64,000 nucleotides of DNA from Allacma fusca. Its lineage: Eukaryota > Arthropoda > Collembola > Symphypleona > Sminthuridae. The notes beneath the pieces were generated by a model that was given only the letters and a program-made list of their open reading frames with translations, was not told where the DNA came from and searched no databases. Position 1 is the first letter of the stretch. Every line of letters begins with the position of its first letter. Position numbers and translations under genes: made by a program. The DNA lies in assembly GCA_947179485.1 (NCBI GenBank), contig OX359245.1:4879001-4943000 (forward strand). Direction: 5' to 3'. This document shows, one piece after another, positions 6,001 through 34,837 of the stretch.

Positions 6001-6580
6001 GCACAGTACGGGTCTGGAAAAAGTTCCCTAACCTGCGAACCCAGTTAGTCGGGGAAGAGACCCGTTATAGTCGGGGATTTTAGATACCAGGGAAGTCGGA
6101 AAATTTTTGGAATTTTCCCTGGCGGGGTCGTCGGGAAAACTCGACGAATTCGGAAATTTTTAGAAATTTGGCTGGCGGGGTCGTCGGGAAAACTCGACGA
6201 ATTCGGGAATTTTTTGGAAATTTGGCTGGCGGGGTCGTCGGGAAAACTCGACGAATTCGGGAATTTTTTGGAAATTTGGCTGGCGGGGTCGTCGGGAAAA
6301 CTCGACGAATTCGGGAATTTTTTGGAAATTTGGCTGGCGGGGTCGTCGGGAAAACTCGACGAATTCGGGAATTTTTTGGAAATTTGGCTGGCGGGGTCGT
6401 CGGGAAAACTCGACGAATTCGGGAATTTTTTGGAAATTTGGCTGGCGGGGTCGTCGGGAAAACTCGACGATTTCGGAAAGTTTTTGGAAAATGGTAGTCG
6501 GGAAATTTCGTGTTTGAGTCGGGGAATTCCCAATTTAGGTTAGTCTGGTGGTTGGAACTTATTCCAGACCCGGCACAGTA
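6001..6580. mobile_element. Non-autonomous DNA transposon (8-bp TSD) with internal 54-bp tandem repeats
   Basis: The element spans 6009-6572 (564 bp). It is flanked by a perfect 8-bp duplication GCACAGTA at 6001-6008 and 6573-6580. The termini are inverted: CGGGTCTGGAA, then one mismatch, then AAGTTCC. An 8-bp duplication fits the hAT superfamily, although the terminal sequence is not the common CAG type. No transposase is encoded. The centre is the minisatellite described separately. Confidence 0.85.
6121..6495. repeat. 54-bp minisatellite, about seven copies
   Basis: Units begin at about 6121, 6174, 6228, 6282, 6336, 6390 and 6444, with a period of 54 bp (53 for the first). The middle five are essentially identical and the outer ones diverged. 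Each unit contains the self-complementary stretch TCGTCG..CGACGA. Because 54 is divisible by three, several frames stay open and give spurious repetitive proteins of 109-184 residues on both strands. Confidence 0.95.
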
Positions 6581-10304: not shown

Positions 10305-13300
10305 TTAGATACATACAATTTTGTTGATACAAGCTATTAAATAGAACATTAGAGGTTTTAACGTATCCACATTACAATTACTTACACAACGCAGCATTTG
10401 AATCATATCTCTGTTAATTCCATAGGGGAAGTACTTATTCCTAATCTGTTCCGTTCCGGAACATACGTGTAGTATGTGATATATTTCGTAGGGTTGGGGA
10501 GGTCCACACAGCTTGCAGAACACTTCATTAAATATCATGCATTTATCTTTGTAGATGATTCTGTTACAATTAAGTCTTAACTGGGCAATCAATGCCTTCA
10601 GAGACATGTTCACCCGAAGATGTAGATAAGGTTTGCAGTTGTCATTTCGGTATATTAGTTTATATGTGGGGTGTGAGGTGGAGTTTAAGATTCTGACCAT
10701 ATCACTTTGCGAGCTTTGTTCACTTACAGCGCGCATTATTGCTTTTACTTCGGTGGACAGCAGCACAGGGCATTGCCGCAAAAAGACTTCCTTGAATCCC
10801 AGTTTGGTTAGTATTTCTTCAAGATTTCCTACCCAGTTGTAGGATTTACATAACATATTTTCAGTATGAAGATATAATAATCTTTTGTAGCATATTTTAA
10901 CTATTCTATTGCCTTCCATAATTAATATTTTAAACCAGAGTCTTAAAAGCTGAAGGATTATTAGATATTTTATCTTGCGCCTTCCAGTTTCGTACCTAAC
11001 AAGATGATGCCCTGTGGATTTGGGAAGTCTTAAGACTCTCTTAAAGTATTCCATTTGAACCTTCTCTATGTAATCAGTGTCAAGATAGTTCAACGACCAG
11101 ATTGGGCACGCATATAGTAACGTGTTAGTACATATACTATCAAATATCTTACATCTTCCCGACCAGGAGTACATACCTGAGCGTAGACCAATACGCAAGA
11201 CATGAGCTAGCGCATTCCTAGATTTGTTTATTCTGTCTGTCATGGCATCGAAGAAAAGCCCCGAAGATGAAAACACAATCCCTAAATATGTATAATTCTT
11301 CACAATTTCAATTGGTTTTCCATCTAAATTAAACTTGTGAGACTTACAGGGCTTACCCGCCTTTCTAAATACAATAATTTTAGTTTTCGATAAATTAATA
11401 TCCAGCTCGTTTATTTTACAAAAGTGACTTAAACAATTAATTTTTGCTTGTAAAGCCTGCTTGGACTCGGCTAAAGTAATATTGTCATCAGCTAGCATAA
11501 GTACATGAATAGAGTTCTTACCTCCTAAACCAACAGGTTGACAGTGATTGTGAATCAGAAAGTCATCCAGATCGCTAATGTAAAGCGCAAATAACAGAGG
11601 GCTTAATATTTCACCCTGTAACACACCACATGTTATATCAAAATACCTGCTACAACCCTCCGGAGTCTTAACTCTCATTTTAGCGTTAGAGTATATTGCT
11701 CTAATAATTGTTATTATTCTAGACGAGACACCAATCTTGCTCAACTTCTGCCAAAGCTTACTATGAGAGACGCTATCAAATGCACGCAGGAGGTCAACAA
11801 ATAAAGCAAAAAGTTTACCCCCCTTGTTTTTTAGTTTCATTTGAATAATTGCCATCAGGGAGAATAGCTGGTAAGTACACCCTCTACCCTTTCTGAATCC
11901 CGCTTGCGTTTCAGGAAGTTTGTTATTGTTTTCGGCCCAGTTAGACAAGCGATTGTAAATAACAGAGGTAAAAAGTTTGGTGATAGTATTTACTAGTGCA
12001 ATACCCCTGTAGTTTGTGGGGACTGAGTTATCTCCTTTTTTAAACAACATAACTAGCTGCATTTCTGACCAGTTTTCTGGTGTTTTCCCGCTAATAAAAC
12101 ATTCGTTAAATATATGTAAAAGATTTTCTAGGGCCACATCCGGAAGATTTTGTAAGATTATATTTGGAATGTTATCGGGCCCAGGAGATTTTGCTGGGGG
12201 TAGACCCTTTACAATTTCTTTTAGTTCTGACATAGTGATGACGTCATCTAATTCTCGGATCTGTATACCAGCGATTGTCTCTAATTCTTGAGTGCCTCTT
12301 CCAGGCAAAATACTTTCGTAGAACGTTTCCCATTCAGCTAGACTTATTTCATTACTAGTATAGTTCCTATCTCTAAATTTTTTTACTGCGGCCCAGAAGG
12401 TGGAAGGGCGCTTACAATTAGCAAACATTTCTTGCAGCACTATAAATGATTGGCGCTTTTTTTCCTTTATTAAATTTTTGTATTCCTTTTTTCTTTCCAG
12501 TTGTTTACCCTTTTGTTTCCTAAAAGCTAGAGTCTTTGCACGGAGCTGGTTGGCAGCTACCTTACATTCACTGTCATACCATGGCTTAACATTGCCAGCT
12601 TTTTGCTTATTATTTATCCTATGATACATATTGTGTTTCTTGGCTGCTACAAAAATACATTCTCTAAAAGAGTTAGTCTGTTACGTTAGTTTGCATATTT
12701 GCTATTTCTAATGAGAATAAGTTTATTTTATCCCTGTCATTGCAGACAAATTTATACACAGGCAGGGACTTAGTAGTTTTCTGATACTTTGACAAGTTTA
12801 ATTCTACCGAACATGGGAAATGATCACTTAACGTAATGTTAGCTACACAAAAGTCCTTAATTATTGCTAACCCTTTATCATTACACCAACATTGATCTAT
12901 ACAACTGGATCCATTATTACTGCAAAATGTGTAAGCTCCATCATAATCAGATTCAGTCCTACCGTTTAGTACAAAGAGTCCTAGAGATTCACAAGTATCA
13001 ACAAAATATTTTCCTCTGGAATTACAAAAGGTGTCTCTACTACTCCTAATAGTTTTAATATTTCTTGGGTAGCCTGAGCCGTTGTCCAATTGGTTCAAAG
13101 ATCCAATTCTAAGGTTAAAGTCCCCAAACACTAAAAGCAAGTCATCGATATAAGTGTAAATGTCTTCAAAGAAAGTATCAATAATACCCATGGGGCATGT
13201 TGGTGGGAAATAGCAGAACACAAAAGTTGAAGTGATTGAAGTTTGTAGGTGCGTTATTTTCAGTATGACGTAATATTGGTTCTTCTTGACCAACTGCGAC

Positions 13301-13560
13301 GAGAACGTATCTTTGAGGATCCCCATAACTAGTCCCCCACTTGGTCTACCTTTGTTACACGCCCTGGTCGCAGCAGACACGTATACGTCATATTTTGTAA
13401 ATACATTAGGAAATTGAAAGCCTTCCCCTATATACGTTTCATTAAAGCAAATGATTTCATGTGAGAATATGTAATCAAAATCAGTTCGAATTAAATTTAT
13501 GATATTTGAAAAACCGTGACAGTTCCAGAAGAGTAGTTTTGAGTTTTTGGTGCCCCTTTC
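10305..13560 (-). pseudogene. LINE ORF2: endonuclease plus reverse transcriptase, one frameshift
   Basis: The endonuclease part (13560-12673) begins with LLFWNCHGFSN and includes NETYI, GDFN and SDHFP, the expected metal and catalytic motifs. The reverse transcriptase part (about 12670-10305, roughly 780 codons) includes the fingers region KSPGPDNIPN, the AGFRKGRGC motif, FVDLLRAFDSVSH, GVLQGEILSPLLF and the catalytic MLADDN (A-DD rather than YADD). The two parts lie in different frames: the endonuclease frame stops at 12673 while the RT frame is open across the junction. This implies a single-base indel near 12670. Otherwise the domains look complete, so the copy is young. Confidence 0.88.
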
Positions 13561-14499
13561 TCATTTTTCTGTGTGCGAAGGTTGAGAAGATAGCTCAGTA
13601 GAGGCCCCTGGTTTCTTTTGCGGCAACCATTCCGGGCATATCCTTACTACTTGTCTTCCGTCAGATTCGTAGAACACTGTGTCCCCACTATTGGGGTCGC
13701 TGATTCCAAGATATCTCCATGACCTGAAGCGCATTGTCTTGTCCGACGAACCTACTGTCTTGGAGCCCCATTCATACAAGTGCTGTTTTATCCGTCGTTG
13801 CTCAAAGGAAAGGTCCGGTTTAATGGCTATCTTCGACTTCTTAAGTTTAGAAACATTTTTCCAGATTAAACCGCAATCATATTTGGAATAAAACTTACAT
13901 ACGATGGAACAACTTCCATCCCGCCATGGAATAGGGAATACTTTCTCGACCCGAGCATTTACGCATGTTACACGTAGAAGTTCGGATATGACTTTGTCAA
14001 CGTCTTCCTTCTTTGGTCGCACGGGAAGATTAGTTCCTGTTATGACAATTCCTCTTGCATTTTCGGGGTTCTTCATTTTCAGCATATCATTTTTCAAGTG
14101 GATAAGCTCGGTGTTTAAGCTGGCGGAGTTATCAGCAACAGTCCATTCAAGATTTTCCATCCTTACATTCTGGTTGTCCAGTGAATTTGTTAGGGATTGG
14201 ATGTTTTCCTTTACAGTTGCGGAGTCTTTGATTAACGTAGCCAGGGAGGTGTTGGTTTTCTTCGAGCTCTCCAGTAGGTCCTTCTGTAGGTCCTTCAATG
14301 TTTTTAGGATCTTTCCAGGGTCGTCCGCTTCCCCTTTTGATTTGATTGTTTCTTCTGTAGCGTCTCTTCTCAGTACTCTTCCTTCACGGGCTGTTTGGGA
14401 TGAGGATGAACTCTCGTCCGTGTCCACGACGACCGGATCACCTTTTAAATTAGGGGGTTTGGTAGTATTCTGAGGCTTTTTATTGTTTATATCTGCCAT
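13561..14499 (-). CDS. LINE ORF1 nucleic-acid-binding protein
   Basis: A 312-aa frame starting at the ATG at 14499 (MADINNKKP); an upstream ATG would add 12 residues. The N-terminal third is acidic and serine-rich, followed by a coiled-coil-like stretch (about residues 85-150) and a C-terminal domain with the pattern seen in LINE ORF1 RNA-binding domains (VITGTNLPVRPKKEDVDKVI onward). No CCHC zinc knuckle is visible. ORF2 continues in the same frame directly after the TGA stop at 13561-13563. Confidence 0.75.
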   Translation of the reverse strand: MADINNKKPQNTTKPPNLKGDPVVVDTDESSSSSQTAREGRVLRRDATEETIKSKGEADDPGKILKTLKDLQKDLLESSKKTNTSLATLIKDSATVKENIQSLTNSLDNQNVRMENLEWTVADNSASLNTELIHLKNDMLKMKNPENARGIVITGTNLPVRPKKEDVDKVISELLRVTCVNARVEKVFPIPWRDGSCSIVCKFYSKYDCGLIWKNVSKLKKSKIAIKPDLSFEQRRIKQHLYEWGSKTVGSSDKTMRFRSWRYLGISDPNSGDTVFYESDGRQVVRICPEWLPQKKPGASTELSSQPSHTEK

Positions 14500-15525
14500 G
14501 ATTTTGTGTGAGATGAGATTGTATGAAAAACACAACTTGCCTTAGTCTTAGCCCGGATTACACCTCAAACATTTGCACTTTTTGCCAAGAATATTTGGTA
14601 TAAGTACCCTGGTGTAACCGGGCAGTTACGGGTCCAGATTGCAGCGGCCGAGGTGGAAGAATTACTCTTGCAAAAAAATTCTTGAATATTGCCACACCCT
14701 AACTATGTACATGATTGTCAATTGAATTACTTACTACATAGTATCATATTTTTTAGTACGCCACACATGCAATATTTACACGTTGTAGAATATTTCCCTC
14801 AGCATAGGAGTAGAGGTAAAATAAATATTGCAATTTCCAAGGTTGAATTTTTTGACATTTCATAAGTAAAGTACTCTCCGTTATATTTGTAAAATTTTAC
14901 GGCCTTTCAGCGAGCTACCAATCAGGTCCCTAAGCTAATAACGGTATAAATACTAAGACATGAGGAATTCAAAAGCTTTCCAAATTTAAATTATTTTTCT
15001 TATTCTGTAAATCAAAAGCAGCAAATCCGTATGCAATATAATACAGCAAAGTTTTTGTTTTACTTTCTTGACCGCTGCAAGGTTTTGAGCTGCGAATATG
15101 TAACTAGTTTTGAAAAATCTGGTAAAACTGCTAAAAAGTATGGAATCCAAATATTTCTCCCCTTTGATTGTTGATGTACATTCAAAAACAATAAAAAATC
15201 CACGTAAGTTTCCAACGTACGAGCATGTTCGTATGCAATTCATCAAAACGTCTGAATTCTCATCGTATATAATCTAAATATTCAAGTACACTAGTTAAGG
15301 GTACGAGTAAATAACCCCATTATACCCGTACCCGGCGGGTATACACCCATTCTCAAATCCCTGTACCCGTACCCATACCCGTATCCGTACCCGAAATTAT
15401 GAGCCAACCGAAGTGTACTCGGGTAGTACCCGAAATTGTTCGGGCACACTTAACCGGTAACCGGGTAGTACCCATACCCGTTTACTAGAGTATTACCCAT
15501 ACCCGTGCCGAGCACTGCTACAGTT

Positions 15526-18283: not shown

Positions 18284-18708
18284 TTATTCCACATTAACGA
18301 ATTCGTAATTAACTTTATTCTTGTAACGAGACATTTTCAAATGAGTCTGAATAATACAGGAAATGATAATACCCATATATTCTACACGATCCCTAAAGAT
18401 TGTCTTCTCTTCATCGTCCAGATCAATCAGAAACCCGTCATCGGAGAGCAACCCAATCCGCAACTGTTCATTGGCCCGGCATTGGCTCATATATTTGGCC
18501 CAACTAATATACTTGGCCGCCGGCGCAACGTAGGCCCAAACTATTATCCCAACCTGATACCAATTGTGGCCCAACACTGGGCCGATGCAATACAGTATCA
18601 TACCCATCGCTTAACCCTCCAAGGTGGTAAAGTGTAGATGGCGCTCGAATGCTAATTGAAATTCTTGTGTTTGGTCTATAAAAAGTTTTTAAATCTCGTG
18701 TTTATTCT

Positions 18709-20679
18709 TCAATAACATGTAAAAGTGGAACACAAAAACCCATCATGGAATGGAAGCAACAGACATTTTCTAACAAGTACAGCTTTTTGTATTCGTTTAT
18801 ACGACGATAAGTTTTTAACAACAAAAATTTCCAGCAAACTACTATCAACAGGATAATCATCAAACTTGCATTTACATATAAAGTTTCTACCGCAGCATTC
18901 CGATGATTCACCTTGCAAGTCTTCTGTTAAATATATAATTCCCTCGGTAGACATAAAACAATTATTCGATTTAGACGTTGACAATTGTATCCTCTGTGAC
19001 TGAACTTTAGCACGTACATTGTAATTGCTAAGATGCAGATTTCCTGCCAACACATTTTCGCGTTCGGTTATCCTATTTACAATTTGATTCAAGTAGAGAT
19101 TTTCACCCCTTAACAATCTTTTCAGTGTTTGAAGAAAAGTTTCAAAGTTGAAAGCACTGCAAGATTCAATGGAGCTAAATGTTAAAGCGTCATCCGCTAG
19201 ATGACTAAGGCTGTGGATGTTGTACACCATAAAATCTGTACCATACAATTTAGGAACTAATTTGACAAAATCAAGCAGTAGTTTTCTTGCCATTCTTATC
19301 CAATCACTATTCAGGTTACCTTTCAGTAGAATATACATACTTACACTAAGCAATAAAAAATGACGATACTTTGATTTTGGAAGCACGGATGTGAGAGCAA
19401 GTGGCCCAACGTATATTAAGAACATTCGCAGTTCAGTGGCATTCCACCGGTCAATTTCTTTGAGACTTTGACATTTTCTGGCAAAATCTCTAGGCAAATA
19501 CTTATTGAAGCCTACTATTTTTTCAGAAATATGATTAACTAAACCTGTGGACAACTTATGTGGTATACCACCCTTGACCCACGTATGAAGAAGCTTCCCC
19601 ATTACGCCTAAGCAACAAAGATGCATATAGTCCAGAGGGACTTGAGTTACCAATCCTAATTTAAAAACTGACAACGGGCTTCGTATTGGTTGATGTTTTT
19701 TATATTCCATATATAAATACTTGTCGTCAGTTCTAAGTGGGTCGTCAACCGATAAAAATGTCATTCTCCTTTGCCATGTGCCCTTAATTTCACATCTTTC
19801 ACAGCCATCATAGGAACTAAAAATAGAGCATCCTTTAATAAAACTTCTGGCTGGCGCATCTGCAACAATGCATCGAATTCTAAATTCATACAATTTGCCA
19901 TTAAGTTGTATACCTTCCTGCTCTAAAAGTAAGCATTAATTCGTCAAATCGTTGAGAAATGCCTGAATAGAAGGCTTATCATCACCATAATATATGGCAA
20001 TTACAAATGGAGATTGGTCGAAAGCTTGATCTAAAACACCAAGAATAGGAATAAATTGTTTGCGAGAGCTTTTTGTCAAAGGTACACCATCAATTCCTAC
20101 AGTGACGGTCAATGTGGATTCTTTTGTCAAAATTTCAAAATTAACATTTTTGGGCAAAATGTGGAACTTTAATCCTGATTGTGATCTTGCGATTATATGA
20201 TTTTTTAAGCCAAAGTAGCAGAATTGACCCCCGTCCATAATTTCGATGTGTGATTTGTTAATATTGGTACATAGTAGCGAGCGTACATCGACTGGTAGAT
20301 TTTCTGCAGGAAGCTTTAGTCTTAAAATTTTAAGAAGGTGTTTGGCTGTTATATGGGGAACATTGTGTAATAAGCACCGTGAAGCCAGCTCAAATTTAAA
20401 GGGCATCTGTGGAAATTCTGATTCAGAATCAGACTCACAAATATTGTCACTACTTTGATATTCAAACTCATGAGTCATGCTCAGCGAATCAAGGAAACCT
20501 CCAGTTTCATGACTATCATGAGAACCTAATTCAAACGGATTATCTTTTGTTTGACTTGAACGGGTATCTATACAGGTTGCCTTCACTTGCTCATAACGAT
20601 CCGATTGAATGTGTCTTAAATGATTAGATACGTAATTACTTCTATGCCTCCTCTTTGTTCTAACAGATGTGTTTTCCAT
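18709..20679 (-). pseudogene. EnSpm-like transposase with in-frame stop
   Basis: An intronless frame of about 656 codons from the ATG at 20679, interrupted by a TAA at 19936-19938 in the same frame. It resembles the widespread animal transposase type with SPFVIAIYYGDDKP, then a CDAPARAF-like block (here VADAPARSFIKG), a CxxC (CERCEIKG), DYMHLCCLGVMGKL, and a DUF4218-like region (NIHSLSHLADDALTF). The C-terminus also seems shifted. The current frame ends FLCSTFTCY, while the neighbouring frame gives CVPLLH, close to the PLLH ending usual in the family; this suggests a one-base change at the T run near 18745. The protein is probably inactive unless the stop is an error. Confidence 0.8.
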
Positions 20680-20815
20680 AATTACGAGGACAAAACTACT
20701 TTATACAATAAAAGTAATAACTATTACTTAAATAAATTATACAATTAAACGGAAACTACTTATATTTAACTAACACACTACGCTTTGCTCTTCCTCCGTT
20801 CCGGTCCTTCGAATA

Positions 20816-23462
20816 TCAAAACCATTTTTGACACACGGGCTCCACTTGAGATTCGGAACATTCAAATTCTTCGACTCCACAAACTCCAGCTGAAATTATG
20901 TAAGTAAGCTAAATATGCTAAAGCAATGCTGCTGGCCCAAGTAAAATCAATAAAACGCAATCAAGAATTTAATAATACAAATAAAATAAAAAAATTTCAT
21001 ACCTACAACCGACGAACAAATGTTGAGATTCTTAAAGCAGATTTTGTCACCTTTACCAGTGTAACTAATGCCAAGGGCCAGTTCGTGAGAAAAAATGCGT
21101 GTAAGAATACGGCGAGTTTGAACTTTAAAATCAGCACCACCAATACCACAGCACCATTGTACCTACAAAAAAATAATTGTCGTGAAAGCTTTTTTGTCAA
21201 CAAGCTTTTGTTATATGCTTGAAATATTTTTGTAGTATGCTAATATTTTGTGGTACCCTTATAACGGCTTATGCTTATACGGGTTATTCTACTCCCTGGA
21301 GCATCCCGTTTATCGAGTCGTTTATTTAATTAATAGTAACCCGCAAATATTGAATGGAAAATCCAAAAGGAAAGTCAGGATAAAAAACCTAAAATGTTGG
21401 AAACAAATCTCACTGAAAAATAATCGCGTCCTCATTGCTGTACGAATTTGAAAATCCTGTTAAAAATTCCCTACATTACTTTCAGATTTTCAAAATTGTG
21501 TGGGTAAAAAATGCACTCATTTGACAGCATCGTTGACAGAAACAATTACCTACACAATATGGCCACAATTCAAAAATTCACACGCCACAATTCCACAATT
21601 TTAGCCGCAAACGGTAACAAACAAATATTAAAATATTCCCTGTGGATATTTTTATAAGATACGTCAGGCCTAAATTATTACCAGCTTCTGCCGTGCTAAT
21701 TTTGACTTCAGTTTTTCCTCCGCGACCTGAAGTGACCGTTTGTTTTCAATTGGAATTTCTATTGGGCAAACTTCACGTCGAGATGTCTGTTTCGAAATAT
21801 TTGCACGAAGAATTTCCACGTCGGCCTTGATATCGTGAATTTCACTCAGTATCGTCTTTTCAAATCCTGCGATGAGAGCAATTAAATACACGATAGCGTT
21901 ACTACATTGATTCCGCGCTTGCTGAACATTTCAAATCGTTTTAGTTCGGAGATAAAAAACTACACTTACTTCTGAACTCCGCAAGAAATGTCTGAGAATA
22001 GTCCTCTGCAAATTTTAATGGTTTTTGCCGAATTCCACCCGGTAAATTATCTGCACCTTTATTCTGATCTATTGATTTGATAAAAATCACTGAATAAAAA
22101 TGAATGTGTTTTTTTTGTAAAACTAGTTTCTATGGAGTTCCCTATTTGCTTTGTCCCCTCATTGTCTTGTATACTACCTGTGTACAAAGTTTTTTCTTGA
22201 TAGTAAATTTTAAAAACTATTTTCATAAAAACATCCCTTAAAGATTTGAAAATTATAGAGCCCTTAAAGTATCTCTATTGACAAACACATGTTGCTTAAA
22301 ATACATCAAATCTATTGAAAAAATAATAAACCCATTTATCTTTCATACGAAAGTGTTTTTACTGTCAAGATGTTTCCTATCTTTCCGAACCAGCCATTAA
22401 CTCATCAAATGTACATAATAATATATCCCCTGTGCATTACATACGCGTTAAGGGTAGCCCATCGCTGACTTTTATTTCAGTCTGAGATGTTGAGCCAGTT
22501 GACAGTGGCGTAAAAGCCAAATCTTCGTCTACATTTACTCGGGTTTCCGGTAGCAATGGGGATTTTTCACAATCCTCAGAAACGTCACTGCTGTTATCTG
22601 TGGTAGTAGATTCCACCGGATATTTTGCTGAATTTCTTGAAATGTTTTCACACAATAAATCATTCGAATTGCCCGGATCTGCAACCACCACACAAGCTTT
22701 AACGTCCTGGGCTAAAAGTAGTACAACAAATATTTATAATTGCGCAATAATTACACACGGTTAAATAATTGCATATTATTTCACACAGAATTTGTAGATG
22801 AAATTATAATTACGGCGGTATCATCTGTTACAAAATTTTGAAATTAAGTTTTACTTCAGAATAAAGGTACCAATGCCGTGCATGAATATTCATCAACCCC
22901 AATAGCTTCTGACTCGCTCTCGCTAGAAATGGTCACACGTGTTACCCGTCGGGATTTCGGTGTCTTGATAGGTGGACTATAAATTATTCGTCGCTTCCGA
23001 TTTTTTCGGAGTTTTACAATGTGATCCGCTGCATCATTATCGGTTCCCGTCTCAACAGTAGAGCTATACTGCAGCTTTATAGAAGCTTGTCTGGCCTGCA
23101 GAAAATCGTCTGCAAATAATTTTTTATGGCATTTTATTTCATACTTTTTTCGTTTCTTTATTTCTTTTGAGAAAAGCTTCAAGCTTAAAAACAATATCAG
23201 TATTATCATAATAACGAGTGTTCAAATAATCCTTACCACTTGTATACTTAACGCTGATCTCATAAGAAGGCCAAGAATCTTTATTTGGTTTTGATTTTGG
23301 ATTCGACCGCAATGCAAGAATTTTGTTCCGAGTGTCATCAGGAAAATAACAAATGTTGGATTTCTTCGTATCAATCCATCCTGTTGGAATAACTTCCAGT
23401 GATTCATCCAGTACGAATTTCACCACACAAAAGTTTTTGAGATCTTTAATTTTTACAGCCAT
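20816..23462 (-). CDS. DUF4806-domain protein encoded within the EnSpm-like transposon
   Basis: Six exons on the minus strand: 23237-23462, 22871-23109, 22445-22706, 21682-21866, 21003-21162 and 20816-20889. All have GT/AG borders and unbroken phase, giving 381 aa. The N-terminus (VVKFVLDESLEVIPTGW, CYFP) matches the SVEVVPSSW-type module that precedes DUF4806 in insect proteins. The middle is acidic and low complexity. A short helical segment precedes IEIPIENKRSLQVAEEKL, and the C-terminal DUF4806 core includes the stretch from DFKVQTRRIL to IFSHELALG. The function of the domain is not known to me. It lies 136 bp upstream of the transposase start in the same orientation, so it is likely the second gene of the transposon. 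Unlike the transposase, it has no visible defect. Confidence 0.78.
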
Positions 23463-24797
23463 TGGTTGTCACTGTAGTTCTCCTTGACTTCCTTAATTAA
23501 ATCTACAAGTCTACTACAAGTCTATAGTATAACAATGAGGTACTGTTGCAAAAAATGTCTGATGCCATGCTTTTCACTCTGCACTCTGCACATGCGCCAC
23601 GTCTTTGAGCTTGGTAGTGTTGGCGTACTGGTTCATAGCCGATATGAAACCAACACAGTTCTACACATTGTAGAAATGAGGGTTTCATATCATCAACCAT
23701 TTTCCATCTTTAAACCGATTCCGCAATCCGCAAACCATCTCTGCGTTGGCCCATCAACTCGCCAAAACTTCGTTGCGGATTGGGAAGTGCTCAACTTCAC
23801 TTCGAAATTCCAGGGCTCTCATGTTATGCTCTTTGAGGGTTCTTTTCAGCGCTTGTTCAAACGTTAATTTGTCAACTTCCATAATTATCAATATATAGTT
23901 GTCAATGCGTTTCCCGGTTTCCCGGGTTTCTTGTAGTTCTTTAAGGACACTAAAGGTGTCGTTAATTAAGTACCCCAGTGTTTCCGCAGATCGATAGAAC
24001 CTTCTGAAGTAGAAATTTTCACGAATATTTGGTGTTGGTTGGATCCCATCCATCACTAACACAAACTCAAGTAGAGGGTCGAACCCCACAGTTCGAGATC
24101 TCACGTCATTCCTTAATTCCAAATCCAGAAAGTGAGAGTTATCCTTGCTCTCAAACCATGTTTGCAATTCAAATCCTTGTCGAAGAGATCCGGCCAAGAC
24201 AGTCAAATTAGCGGGAGTGACAGCAAATTCCGATTTCATGTCTTCTACCACATCGAAAAAGAGGACGATTATTCCAACTTTGAAATGTGAAACTTTCTGT
24301 AAGGTCGCAAGTAGTGGATCCTGTCCGATGTCATCGACTGACTGGTACTTTAACAAGAAAATTTTTTGAAGTAGCCGACCAACGCATCTGACGAATTCCG
24401 AGTGTCTCGGGTCCCCCACAAGCTTCTCGCATGCATCGTCTATTACGAACAAAGTGTAAAAGAATACGTTGTAGAGCAATAATTTCCGATAAACTCGTGA
24501 ATTAGTTTGTGCTCCTTCCGCCCATTTCGAACAAAATGTTGCCATCCAGACGGAATCATTAATTAACGGGATATGATCAAATTTATCTGGCCACTTCAAA
24601 CGGCGGGTGGTGTATTTCAGGATATCGTCTGTTAGCTGGTCAATCAGTGATTGGTACTCCTCCAGATCTGGTATCCATTGGTATGGCCAACAAAATACCA
24701 ACTCCCCAGAATATTCAGAAGCATCGGACTCAGCCAAATGTATTCTATTGTTACTGTTTTTGAATCTCCATTTTCGAATTTCTCCTGAAATGTCCAT

Positions 24798-33616: not shown

Positions 33617-34837
33617 CTATTGCGAATCGAGGTTATCTCCAACGGGTCTCTCAGTGACAGTATTCACATTGACGAATTCGTGATTAACTTTAATTTTATA
33701 TCGAGACATTTTTAAGTGAGTCCGAATAAGACAGGAAATCATGGTACCAGCATATGCTACAGTTTTCCAAAAGGTTTTCTTCTCCTCATCATCCAAGTCA
33801 ATCAGATATCGCTCATCGGCAAGCAAGTACTCGACTTCGCCGCGAAATTCAAGAACTTTCTTGTTATGTCGTTTTAAAATTAACTCCAGGGCTTGTCCAA
33901 ACGTCAGATTTTGTACTTCCATAGTTAGCAATATAGAGTTATCAAAGCGTTTCCCGGTCTTTCTGGCCTCTTCCAGTTCTTTAAGCACACTCAATGAGTC
34001 GTTAAGCAAGTAGCCAAGAGTTCGGGCATATTGATACAGCCTCTGGAAGTAGTAGTTTGCACGTATGTTCTGTGTCGGATGTATTCCATCCAATACTAAA
34101 ACAAACTCAAGTGTAGGTTCCATCCCGACAGCTCGAGATCTCAGTTCGTTCCTTAATTCCAAATCAAGAAAGTGAGAGTTACCCTTGCTCCCGAACCATG
34201 TTTGCAATTCGTATGACTCTCTGAAAGTTCGAGCGAAACATGTCATTATTTCCGGAGTCACATCGAATTCCGATTTCATGTCTTCTATAACATCAAAATA
34301 CACGGCAAATGGTCCTACTTGAAGATGCGTGATTTCTTTTAAGGTCAGAAATAGTTGGTCCTGTTCGATATCCTCGATTGACTTAAACTTTAATAAGAAA
34401 ATTTTCTGGAGTAATCGACCGAGGGATTGGACAAAGTCTGAGTGCCTGGAGTGCCCTTCAATTCTCTCGCACAAATCGCCCAGTATGAAGGCGGTAACAA
34501 AGTAAACATTGTATATCAACATCTTACGGTAAGCTCGTGAGTTTATTCGTTCGTCTTCCGCCCATTTTGTGGTAAATGTTGCCATCCAGATACAGTCATT
34601 AATTAAAGGAGCAGGATCAACTTTATCTGGCCATTTGAAGCGCCTTGATATATATTTTGATACGTCCGCTGCTTGCTGATCAACCAGTGGTTGAAATTTG
34701 TCCAAATCTGATATCCATCGGTATGGCCAACAAAATGTGAAGTCTCCAGAATATTCAGATGCCTCGGGCTGAGTCAAATGTTTCTGATTGTTGCTGCTTT
34801 TAAATCTCCATTTACGAATCTGTCCTGAAAATTCCAT
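33617..34837 (-). CDS. Terpene synthase-like protein, copy 2 (uninterrupted)
   Basis: A single open frame of 406 aa from the ATG at 34837 (MEFSGQIRKWRF; an earlier non-ATG extension is disfavoured because copy 1 also aligns from this Met). It is a clear paralogue of copy 1 throughout. Class I terpene cyclase landmarks: aspartate motif region FILGDLCE (residues 117-124), sensor arginine R234 in RSRAVG, second metal motif NDSLSVLKE (N279, S283, E287), and C-terminal SRY. The first aspartate of the DDxxE motif is Gly120 here. In this family the aspartates bind catalytic Mg2+, so activity may be reduced or changed. The C-terminus is ~14 residues longer than copy 1. There are no introns, which would fit horizontal acquisition from a microbe or retroposition. 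The substrate is unknown. Confidence 0.78.
   Translation of the reverse strand: MEFSGQIRKWRFKSSNNQKHLTQPEASEYSGDFTFCWPYRWISDLDKFQPLVDQQAADVSKYISRRFKWPDKVDPAPLINDCIWMATFTTKWAEDERINSRAYRKMLIYNVYFVTAFILGDLCERIEGHSRHSDFVQSLGRLLQKIFLLKFKSIEDIEQDQLFLTLKEITHLQVGPFAVYFDVIEDMKSEFDVTPEIMTCFARTFRESYELQTWFGSKGNSHFLDLELRNELRSRAVGMEPTLEFVLVLDGIHPTQNIRANYYFQRLYQYARTLGYLLNDSLSVLKELEEARKTGKRFDNSILLTMEVQNLTFGQALELILKRHNKKVLEFRGEVEYLLADERYLIDLDDEEKKTFWKTVAYAGTMISCLIRTHLKMSRYKIKVNHEFVNVNTVTERPVGDNLDSQ

Follow-up and report, generated by a model that had tools for sequence, protein, structure and literature searches.

A predicted TRC-type CACTA transposon interrupts a terpene synthase gene of the springtail Allacma fusca

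A terpene synthase gene of the springtail Allacma fusca, here called TPS1, carries a real, base-exact transposon insertion. The element is 5,333 bp long and lies, like the gene that it interrupts, on the minus strand, at positions 18452-23784 of the window (the whole stretch of 64,000 nucleotides of contig OX359245.1 that we analysed, C1:4879001-4943000 of the assembly). With high confidence, we read the locus as a cut-and-paste insertion of a TRC-type element of the CACTA superfamily, which truncated the enzyme and probably left it inactive, a loss that the animal would have tolerated. The features are as follows.

18452-23784, minus strand: DNA transposon assigned to the TRC type (CACTA superfamily); its transposase gene and the host gene are both on the minus strand
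18452-18464, plus strand: terminal inverted repeat, low-coordinate arm, 13 bp, perfect match to the other arm
23772-23784, minus strand: terminal inverted repeat, high-coordinate arm, 13 bp, perfect match to the other arm
18450-18451, no strand: target-site duplication AA, copy 1
23785-23786, no strand: target-site duplication AA, copy 2
23787-24797, minus strand: 5′ piece of TPS1, 337 codons with DDACE, the pyrophosphate-sensor Arg and NDTFSVLKE
23757-23786, minus strand: new C-terminus of ten codons, in frame, made of the duplicated target bases and the transposon end, with its stop at 23754-23756
18284-18451, minus strand: 3′ piece of TPS1, separated by the element; 55 codons, which include the RY pair, and the stop
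18709-20679, minus strand: transposase gene of the window copy, broken by an in-frame stop (codon 248) and, close to its end, by a 2-bp deletion
20950-21162, minus strand: weak match to DUF4806 (E 0.06; 14.1 bits, cut-off 25), a fragment that may belong to a second element gene
23142-23468, minus strand: open frame of 109 codons without a convincing Pfam match, possibly the first exon of a second element gene
33620-34837, minus strand: TPS2, an uninterrupted paralogue of 406 codons with GDLCE in place of DDxxE

Read in the direction of TPS1, the junction is GAGCAC-TT-element-TT-GCTCTCC, and the insertion point is codon 338. The perfect 13-bp inverted ends and the AA duplication described in the original prediction were both recovered at base resolution, and its range of 18444-23795 corresponds to the element plus a few flanking bases. 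The restored frame that it reported also holds: once the element and one AA (TT in the direction of the gene) are taken out, the flanks form a single open frame of 392 codons across the junction. Both peptides quoted at the time, EVEHLLSDD and EVEYLLADE, were found, and the alignment of the joined TPS1 with TPS2, the copy at 33.6-34.8 kb, has no gap at the junction (62.2% identity over 392 residues). A chance inverted repeat was ruled out, since the same two ends bound five further copies at other places in the genome. To call the event 'fossil-quality' was an overstatement; the insertion is clean yet of a common kind.

By searching the genome assembly (392,743,791 bases) with the element, we found six copies with both ends. 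Four of them, the window copy included, are full-length over 5,333 bases, and indels break up the other two (5,545 and 4,808 bp); weaker relatives were also found. The 13-bp terminal repeats are identical across the six copies and begin with CCC (CCCAAT). Target duplications of 2 bp flank five of the six, each with a different dinucleotide (AA/AA, TG/TG, AC/AC, TT/TT and CT/CT), and only at L004, one of the six copies, did we find no duplication (GA versus CG). Divergence between copies ranges from 0.77 to 6.67%, and the family must have moved recently, because the sister copies L002 and L003 are only 0.77% apart. For a second, related element group (L010-L013), right ends were not found with the end pattern used. 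We also observed a 1,169-bp element (L015:7095-8263), flanked by a 2-bp duplication (AC), whose ends are of the same kind in diverged form; it is likely a non-autonomous derivative. The transposase is broken in the window copy and in three others, whereas two of the six (L004 and the copy at C1:57.46 Mb) hold a stop-free transposase of 659 codons from the ATG. Most likely, the window element was moved in trans by transposase from an intact sister copy. More broadly, 67 transposase-like stretches were scored out of 1,509 genome candidates, 52 of them without an internal stop, and equal-scoring pairs or trios among these relatives suggest recent activity.

Two further features of the window were noted. 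Three adjacent minus-strand open frames of 791, 295 and 326 codons (10305-14541) look, by eye, like those of a non-LTR retrotransposon, with a reverse transcriptase and an endonuclease, and a tandem repeat of a 54-bp unit (6092-6490; 7.4 copies, 96% matches) is open in several frames on both strands.

Pfam gave no acceptable match that names the transposase directly, and we used its relatives and the fold of one of them instead. Transposase_21 (PF02992) was not matched in Pfam by the transposase of the intact sister copy, nor in Pfam scans of the relatives P0005, P0010 and P0018; a 35%-identical relative, P0104, reaches it at E 2e-6 with 27.6 bits, just below the cut-off of 28.6. The protein collection holds 493 relatives at E≤0.001, and the best 120 of these include named Folsomia, Penaeus, Eriocheir and fish proteins. 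Across 41 relatives, D194, D272, C291/C294, H483/H487 and E507 (P0005 numbering) are invariant, as are their equivalents in a 16-row alignment that includes the sister copy. Two aspartates, a CxxC, an HxxxH and a glutamate make up a pattern that PMC12730594 gives for EnSpm, Mirage, Chapaev, Transib and RAG1, members of the CMC/CMCT clade, and judging from the motif these invariant residues would be the catalytic ones. The fold was judged from a model of P0005 (pLDDT 85.3), a 39%-identical relative and not the window's own protein. At E≤0.001 this model has eight matches in the PDB, every one a chain of RAG recombinase or HzTransib, with TM-scores of 0.29-0.55.

The encoded transposase further contains LDYMHLCCLG, an instance of the [LVI]-D-x-[LM]-H-x3-L-G motif defined for TRC elements by DeMarco et al. 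2006 (PMC1636069), who described SmTRC1 of Schistosoma as well as elements of Tribolium and Aedes. According to the relevant parts of PMC1636069 and PMC4298943, CCC ends and 2-bp duplications mark animal TRC elements. Because of its CCC ends, the 2-bp duplication, the DDE residues with C2C and H3H, and the RAG/Transib-like fold, we class the springtail element, as far as its sequence allows, as a TRC element within the CACTA superfamily. It shares with the elements of PMC1636069 the CCC ends, the 2-bp duplication, the LDxMH-type motif, the CxxC and the occurrence of degenerate copies, and with the Tribolium one also a size of ~5 kb. Its inverted ends measure 13 bp, compared to 54, 27 and 10 bp in three TRC elements described there. 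Further differences from TRC elements are that the springtail transposase itself has no Pfam match to Transposase_21 and that the second gene is here only putative. The Hydra element Spongebob_HMa / EnSpm-4N1_HM (5.8 kb), as far as it is covered in passages of PMC4298943, likewise has CCC ends and a 2-bp duplication but an unlike terminal sequence; its exact transposase could not be defined in that study. EnSpm elements have CAC ends and 3-bp duplications in the account of PMC12730594, both absent from the springtail element. With plant CACTA / En-Spm elements it shares a CMC-type DDE transposase architecture, as judged by motifs. A canonical CACTA element was ruled out by the CCCAAT ends and the 2-bp duplication; the ends of plant CACTA elements begin with CACTA or CACTG.

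What the insertion did to TPS1 can be read from the two pieces. Before the event, TPS1 would have been an intronless class I terpene synthase gene, into whose codon 338 the transposon would have been inserted by cut-and-paste at a 2-bp staggered joint. The predicted protein now ends after 337 native residues and ten from the transposon end (FPIRNEVLAS, then stop). The 5′ piece matches Pfam PF19086 at 47.4 bits (cut-off 23.7), and the gene has the aspartate-rich DDACE, the NSE motif NDTFSVLKE and an Arg at −46 from the NSE, which agrees with the spacing rule given for the sensor Arg in part of PMC8450962. The C-terminal RY pair is outside the encoded protein and survives in the separated 3′ piece. 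A closely related protein, P0001, an uninterrupted metagenome protein of 394 residues that is 71.7% identical to TPS1 and 61.7% to TPS2, served as a structural proxy. Its model is of moderate confidence (mean pLDDT 67.6, pTM 0.69, five-row alignment; residues 381-394 below pLDDT 50), and in it the insertion point falls near the end of helix 315-342, while the lost part corresponds to helix 352-383 with RY at the helix end. The label 'terpene synthase-like gene' was borne out both by the Pfam score above cut-off and by the terpene-synthase fold of this ∼72%-identical relative.

The P0001 model has 137 structural matches at E≤0.001, and the best 50 of these are, by their titles, bacterial or fungal terpene synthases or variants or reconstructed forms; the top ones are microbial class I enzymes (1-epi-cubenol, T-muurolol, 10-epi-cubebol and pentalenene synthases). 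The springtail relatives resemble these in fold, aspartate-rich motif, Arg at −46, NSE and C-terminal RY, although identity is only 12-17% in the 50 structural alignments listed, and a sequence search of the PDB with the terpene synthases gave no match up to E 0.1. TPS1 as it stands differs from the microbial enzymes in lacking the RY helix. Since this last helix with its diphosphate-contacting RY pair is gone while both metal-binding motifs remain, the truncated product is probably inactive.

TPS1 belongs to a large family. Matches to P0001 were found in 63 genomic stretches, and 30 loci were fetched, with TPS1 as L024 and TPS2 as L026. Because most of these top 30 are single open frames (∼390-450 codons), the A. 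fusca family is apparently intronless. Counting the 5′ piece of TPS1, 27 of the 30 match without a stop, most over nearly their whole length. Stops occur in the other three (L029, L030 and L035), so that gene loss is not rare in the family. Sixteen of the 30 have the NSE pattern; the remaining 14 were left unscored (13 without the strict NSE pattern, one without a frame of >250 codons). In all 16 an Arg is exactly 46 residues upstream, and RY follows the NSE by 100 residues in 14 and by 99 in one, with TPS1 as the sole exception. One member, L031, is nearly identical to a public A. fusca protein, P0002 (tree branches 0.009 and 0.006). At C1:951724-966021, four terpene-synthase genes (L039, L041, L042 and L043) start exactly 4,407 bp apart and three of them encode identical proteins; this array is either a very recent tandem amplification or an assembly repeat. 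Work by Chen et al. in 2024 reportedly concerns arthropod terpene synthases, and terpene synthases of Folsomia candida are cited in a part of PMC6275457. Our text searches on springtail and arthropod terpene synthases, mostly at the level of titles, found no account of the TPS1 locus.

The closest paralogues of TPS1 that we found in the genome are three tandem terpene synthases (L021-L023) at C1:4787460-4810192, 87-109 kb away, whose frames are open across the TPS1 insertion site. L022 may be incomplete at its start, because its frame lacks an ATG over the first 114 codons. In the tree, which leaves out the three stop-bearing loci and represents L024 and L026 by the window's TPS1 5′ piece and TPS2, TPS1 groups with P0001 and this trio (support 99/99), whereas TPS2 pairs with L028 on chromosome 4. 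The 33.6-kb copy chosen for comparison in the original prediction was therefore not the closest one. TPS2 itself matches PF19086 at 39.3 bits (cut-off 23.7), and its activity may be changed or lost despite the open frame, given GDLCE. TPS1 and TPS2 differ by a dN of 0.216 and a dS of 0.926, from which we conclude that TPS1 was constrained in the past; the 5′ piece has a dN of 0.20 and a dS of 0.36 to L021, a higher ratio than that between TPS1 and TPS2. With dozens of related genes in the genome, three of them close tandem paralogues, the loss of TPS1 would have been tolerated and the paralogues may compensate for it.

The insertion is probably fixed. The window copy carries 71 private changes in 5,289 comparable sites (1.34%). 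In its transposase frame, 22 of these are replacing and seven silent (76% replacing), which fits the ∼75-79% expected without selection (p 0.65 to 1). The private changes of L004, in comparison, are 20 replacing and 25 silent (p 4e-7 to 1e-5), which is what a lineage that was kept active should show. Since the counts of the window copy look unselected, most of its private changes probably post-date the insertion, although they could instead have accumulated in a dead parent copy moved in trans. For one A. fusca male, a section of PMC9630974 counts 227,570 heterozygous sites on the autosomes within 92.7 Mb, which by rough division, unadjusted for callable length, corresponds to a heterozygosity of ∼0.25%; that of the reference male is, in the same section, far lower. 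A neutral insertion at 1.3% would, by our estimate, have ∼5 times the expected gene-tree depth. Because neutral-looking divergence is thus well above heterozygosity, fixation is likelier than a young polymorphism. The original suggestion that the insertion could be polymorphic is weakened accordingly: empty alleles may still segregate in the species, and the intact remainder of TPS1, the perfect inverted ends and duplication, and the recent family movement seen between L002 and L003 would all suit a young insertion. Nevertheless, the private changes, unless inherited from a dead parent, are several times what heterozygosity would predict and put the event well past the typical age of a segregating variant, and we regard a young insertion as unlikely.

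The state of the coding sequence bears on whether the remnant was kept. We saw no further lesions in the 1176 TPS1 coding bases. Had TPS1 been neutral since the insertion, ∼0.8 stops and ∼1.1 frameshifts (∼1.9 lesions in total) would be expected, the latter figure being scaled from five private frame-shifting indels in 5,333 bp, and the probability of seeing none is ∼0.15. The count hints, if weakly, at an insertion more recent than thought or at retention of the remnant; as proof of either recency or retention, gene intactness was dropped, the expected lesions being too few to discriminate. The shortened protein, including the ten residues added by the insertion, could have been retained for an altered function, which would account for a frame that is stop-free until the new stop and a 5′ piece without decay. 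Yet the count of zero is compatible with neutrality, and every locus with a recognised NSE motif apart from TPS1 (15 of 16) has the RY pair, which makes such retention highly improbable.

We give very little credence to the idea that the element is spliced out of the RNA as an intron and that TPS1 still yields a working enzyme. In the direction of TPS1, the element does offer a GT (GAA|GTTTTG) 16 bases in from one end and an AG (AACAG|TTGCGG) 12 bases in from the opposite end; splicing there would, as worked out by hand, lengthen the product by ten residues (30 bases) without a change of frame. There is also a precedent in part of PMC4219821, where a 13-kb CACTA element within a soybean intron was removed along with that intron, and the absence of further lesions in TPS1 would fit a gene that is still in use. 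However, by eye and unscored, the donor is weak past the GT and no pyrimidine tract accompanies the acceptor. The ten added residues would sit at a helix end in the P0001 model, and the family gives no indication of introns, with 26 of the 30 fetched loci besides TPS1 free of internal stops. If splicing did occur, TPS1 would be a conditional, transposon-controlled enzyme with ten extra residues before the RY helix and an animal parallel to Spm-suppressible alleles.

Finally, we compared the origins of the two pieces. At the DNA level both rank the paralogue groups alike: identity to L021-L023 is 79-82% for the 5′ piece and 83% for the 3′ piece, to TPS2 and L028 73-74% and 77-79% (TPS2 itself 73% and 79%), and to L025 and L027 ∼69% and 68-70%. 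The distance to TPS2 is somewhat smaller for the 3′ piece (dS 0.60 versus 0.99 for the 5′ piece). The 55 residues of the 3′ piece resolve poorly at the protein level, with 67-73% identity to eight relatives; the best match is L025 (40/55), with L021-L023 one residue behind (39/54). The 3′ flank showed no similarity other than short stretches. That the flanks come from different paralogues joined by rearrangement, with a coincidental fit, could draw on this poor resolution and on the greater DNA similarity of the 3′ piece to TPS2, but it is almost certainly wrong, as the like ranking stands against it and the kept frame, the gap-free alignment and the 2-bp duplication, which also occurs at four of the five other element copies, would all have to be accidents. 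Neither outcome named beforehand as fatal to the insertion was found: the flanks are adjacent in a relative, P0001 being uninterrupted across the site, and the 3′ piece has the same nearest DNA paralogues as the 5′ piece, which points to both belonging to the same gene.

A transposon insertion into TPS1 thus remains our reading, and as such the event is an ordinary kind of gene loss by a known element type. It is the same as in ordinary insertional pseudogenes of multigene families, where one copy is broken and the paralogues stay open, and differs from them in nothing essential. For the elements, it provides a base-exact insertion of a putative TRC/CACTA transposon into a springtail gene, in a genome in which the TRC type appears to be abundant, and it places the TRC features of CCC ends and 2-bp duplications in a springtail. 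The predicted fold of P0005 would further tie animal TRC transposases to RAG1 and Transib. For the host, the locus illustrates birth and death among the terpene-synthase genes of an arthropod, in a family that is large and apparently intronless.
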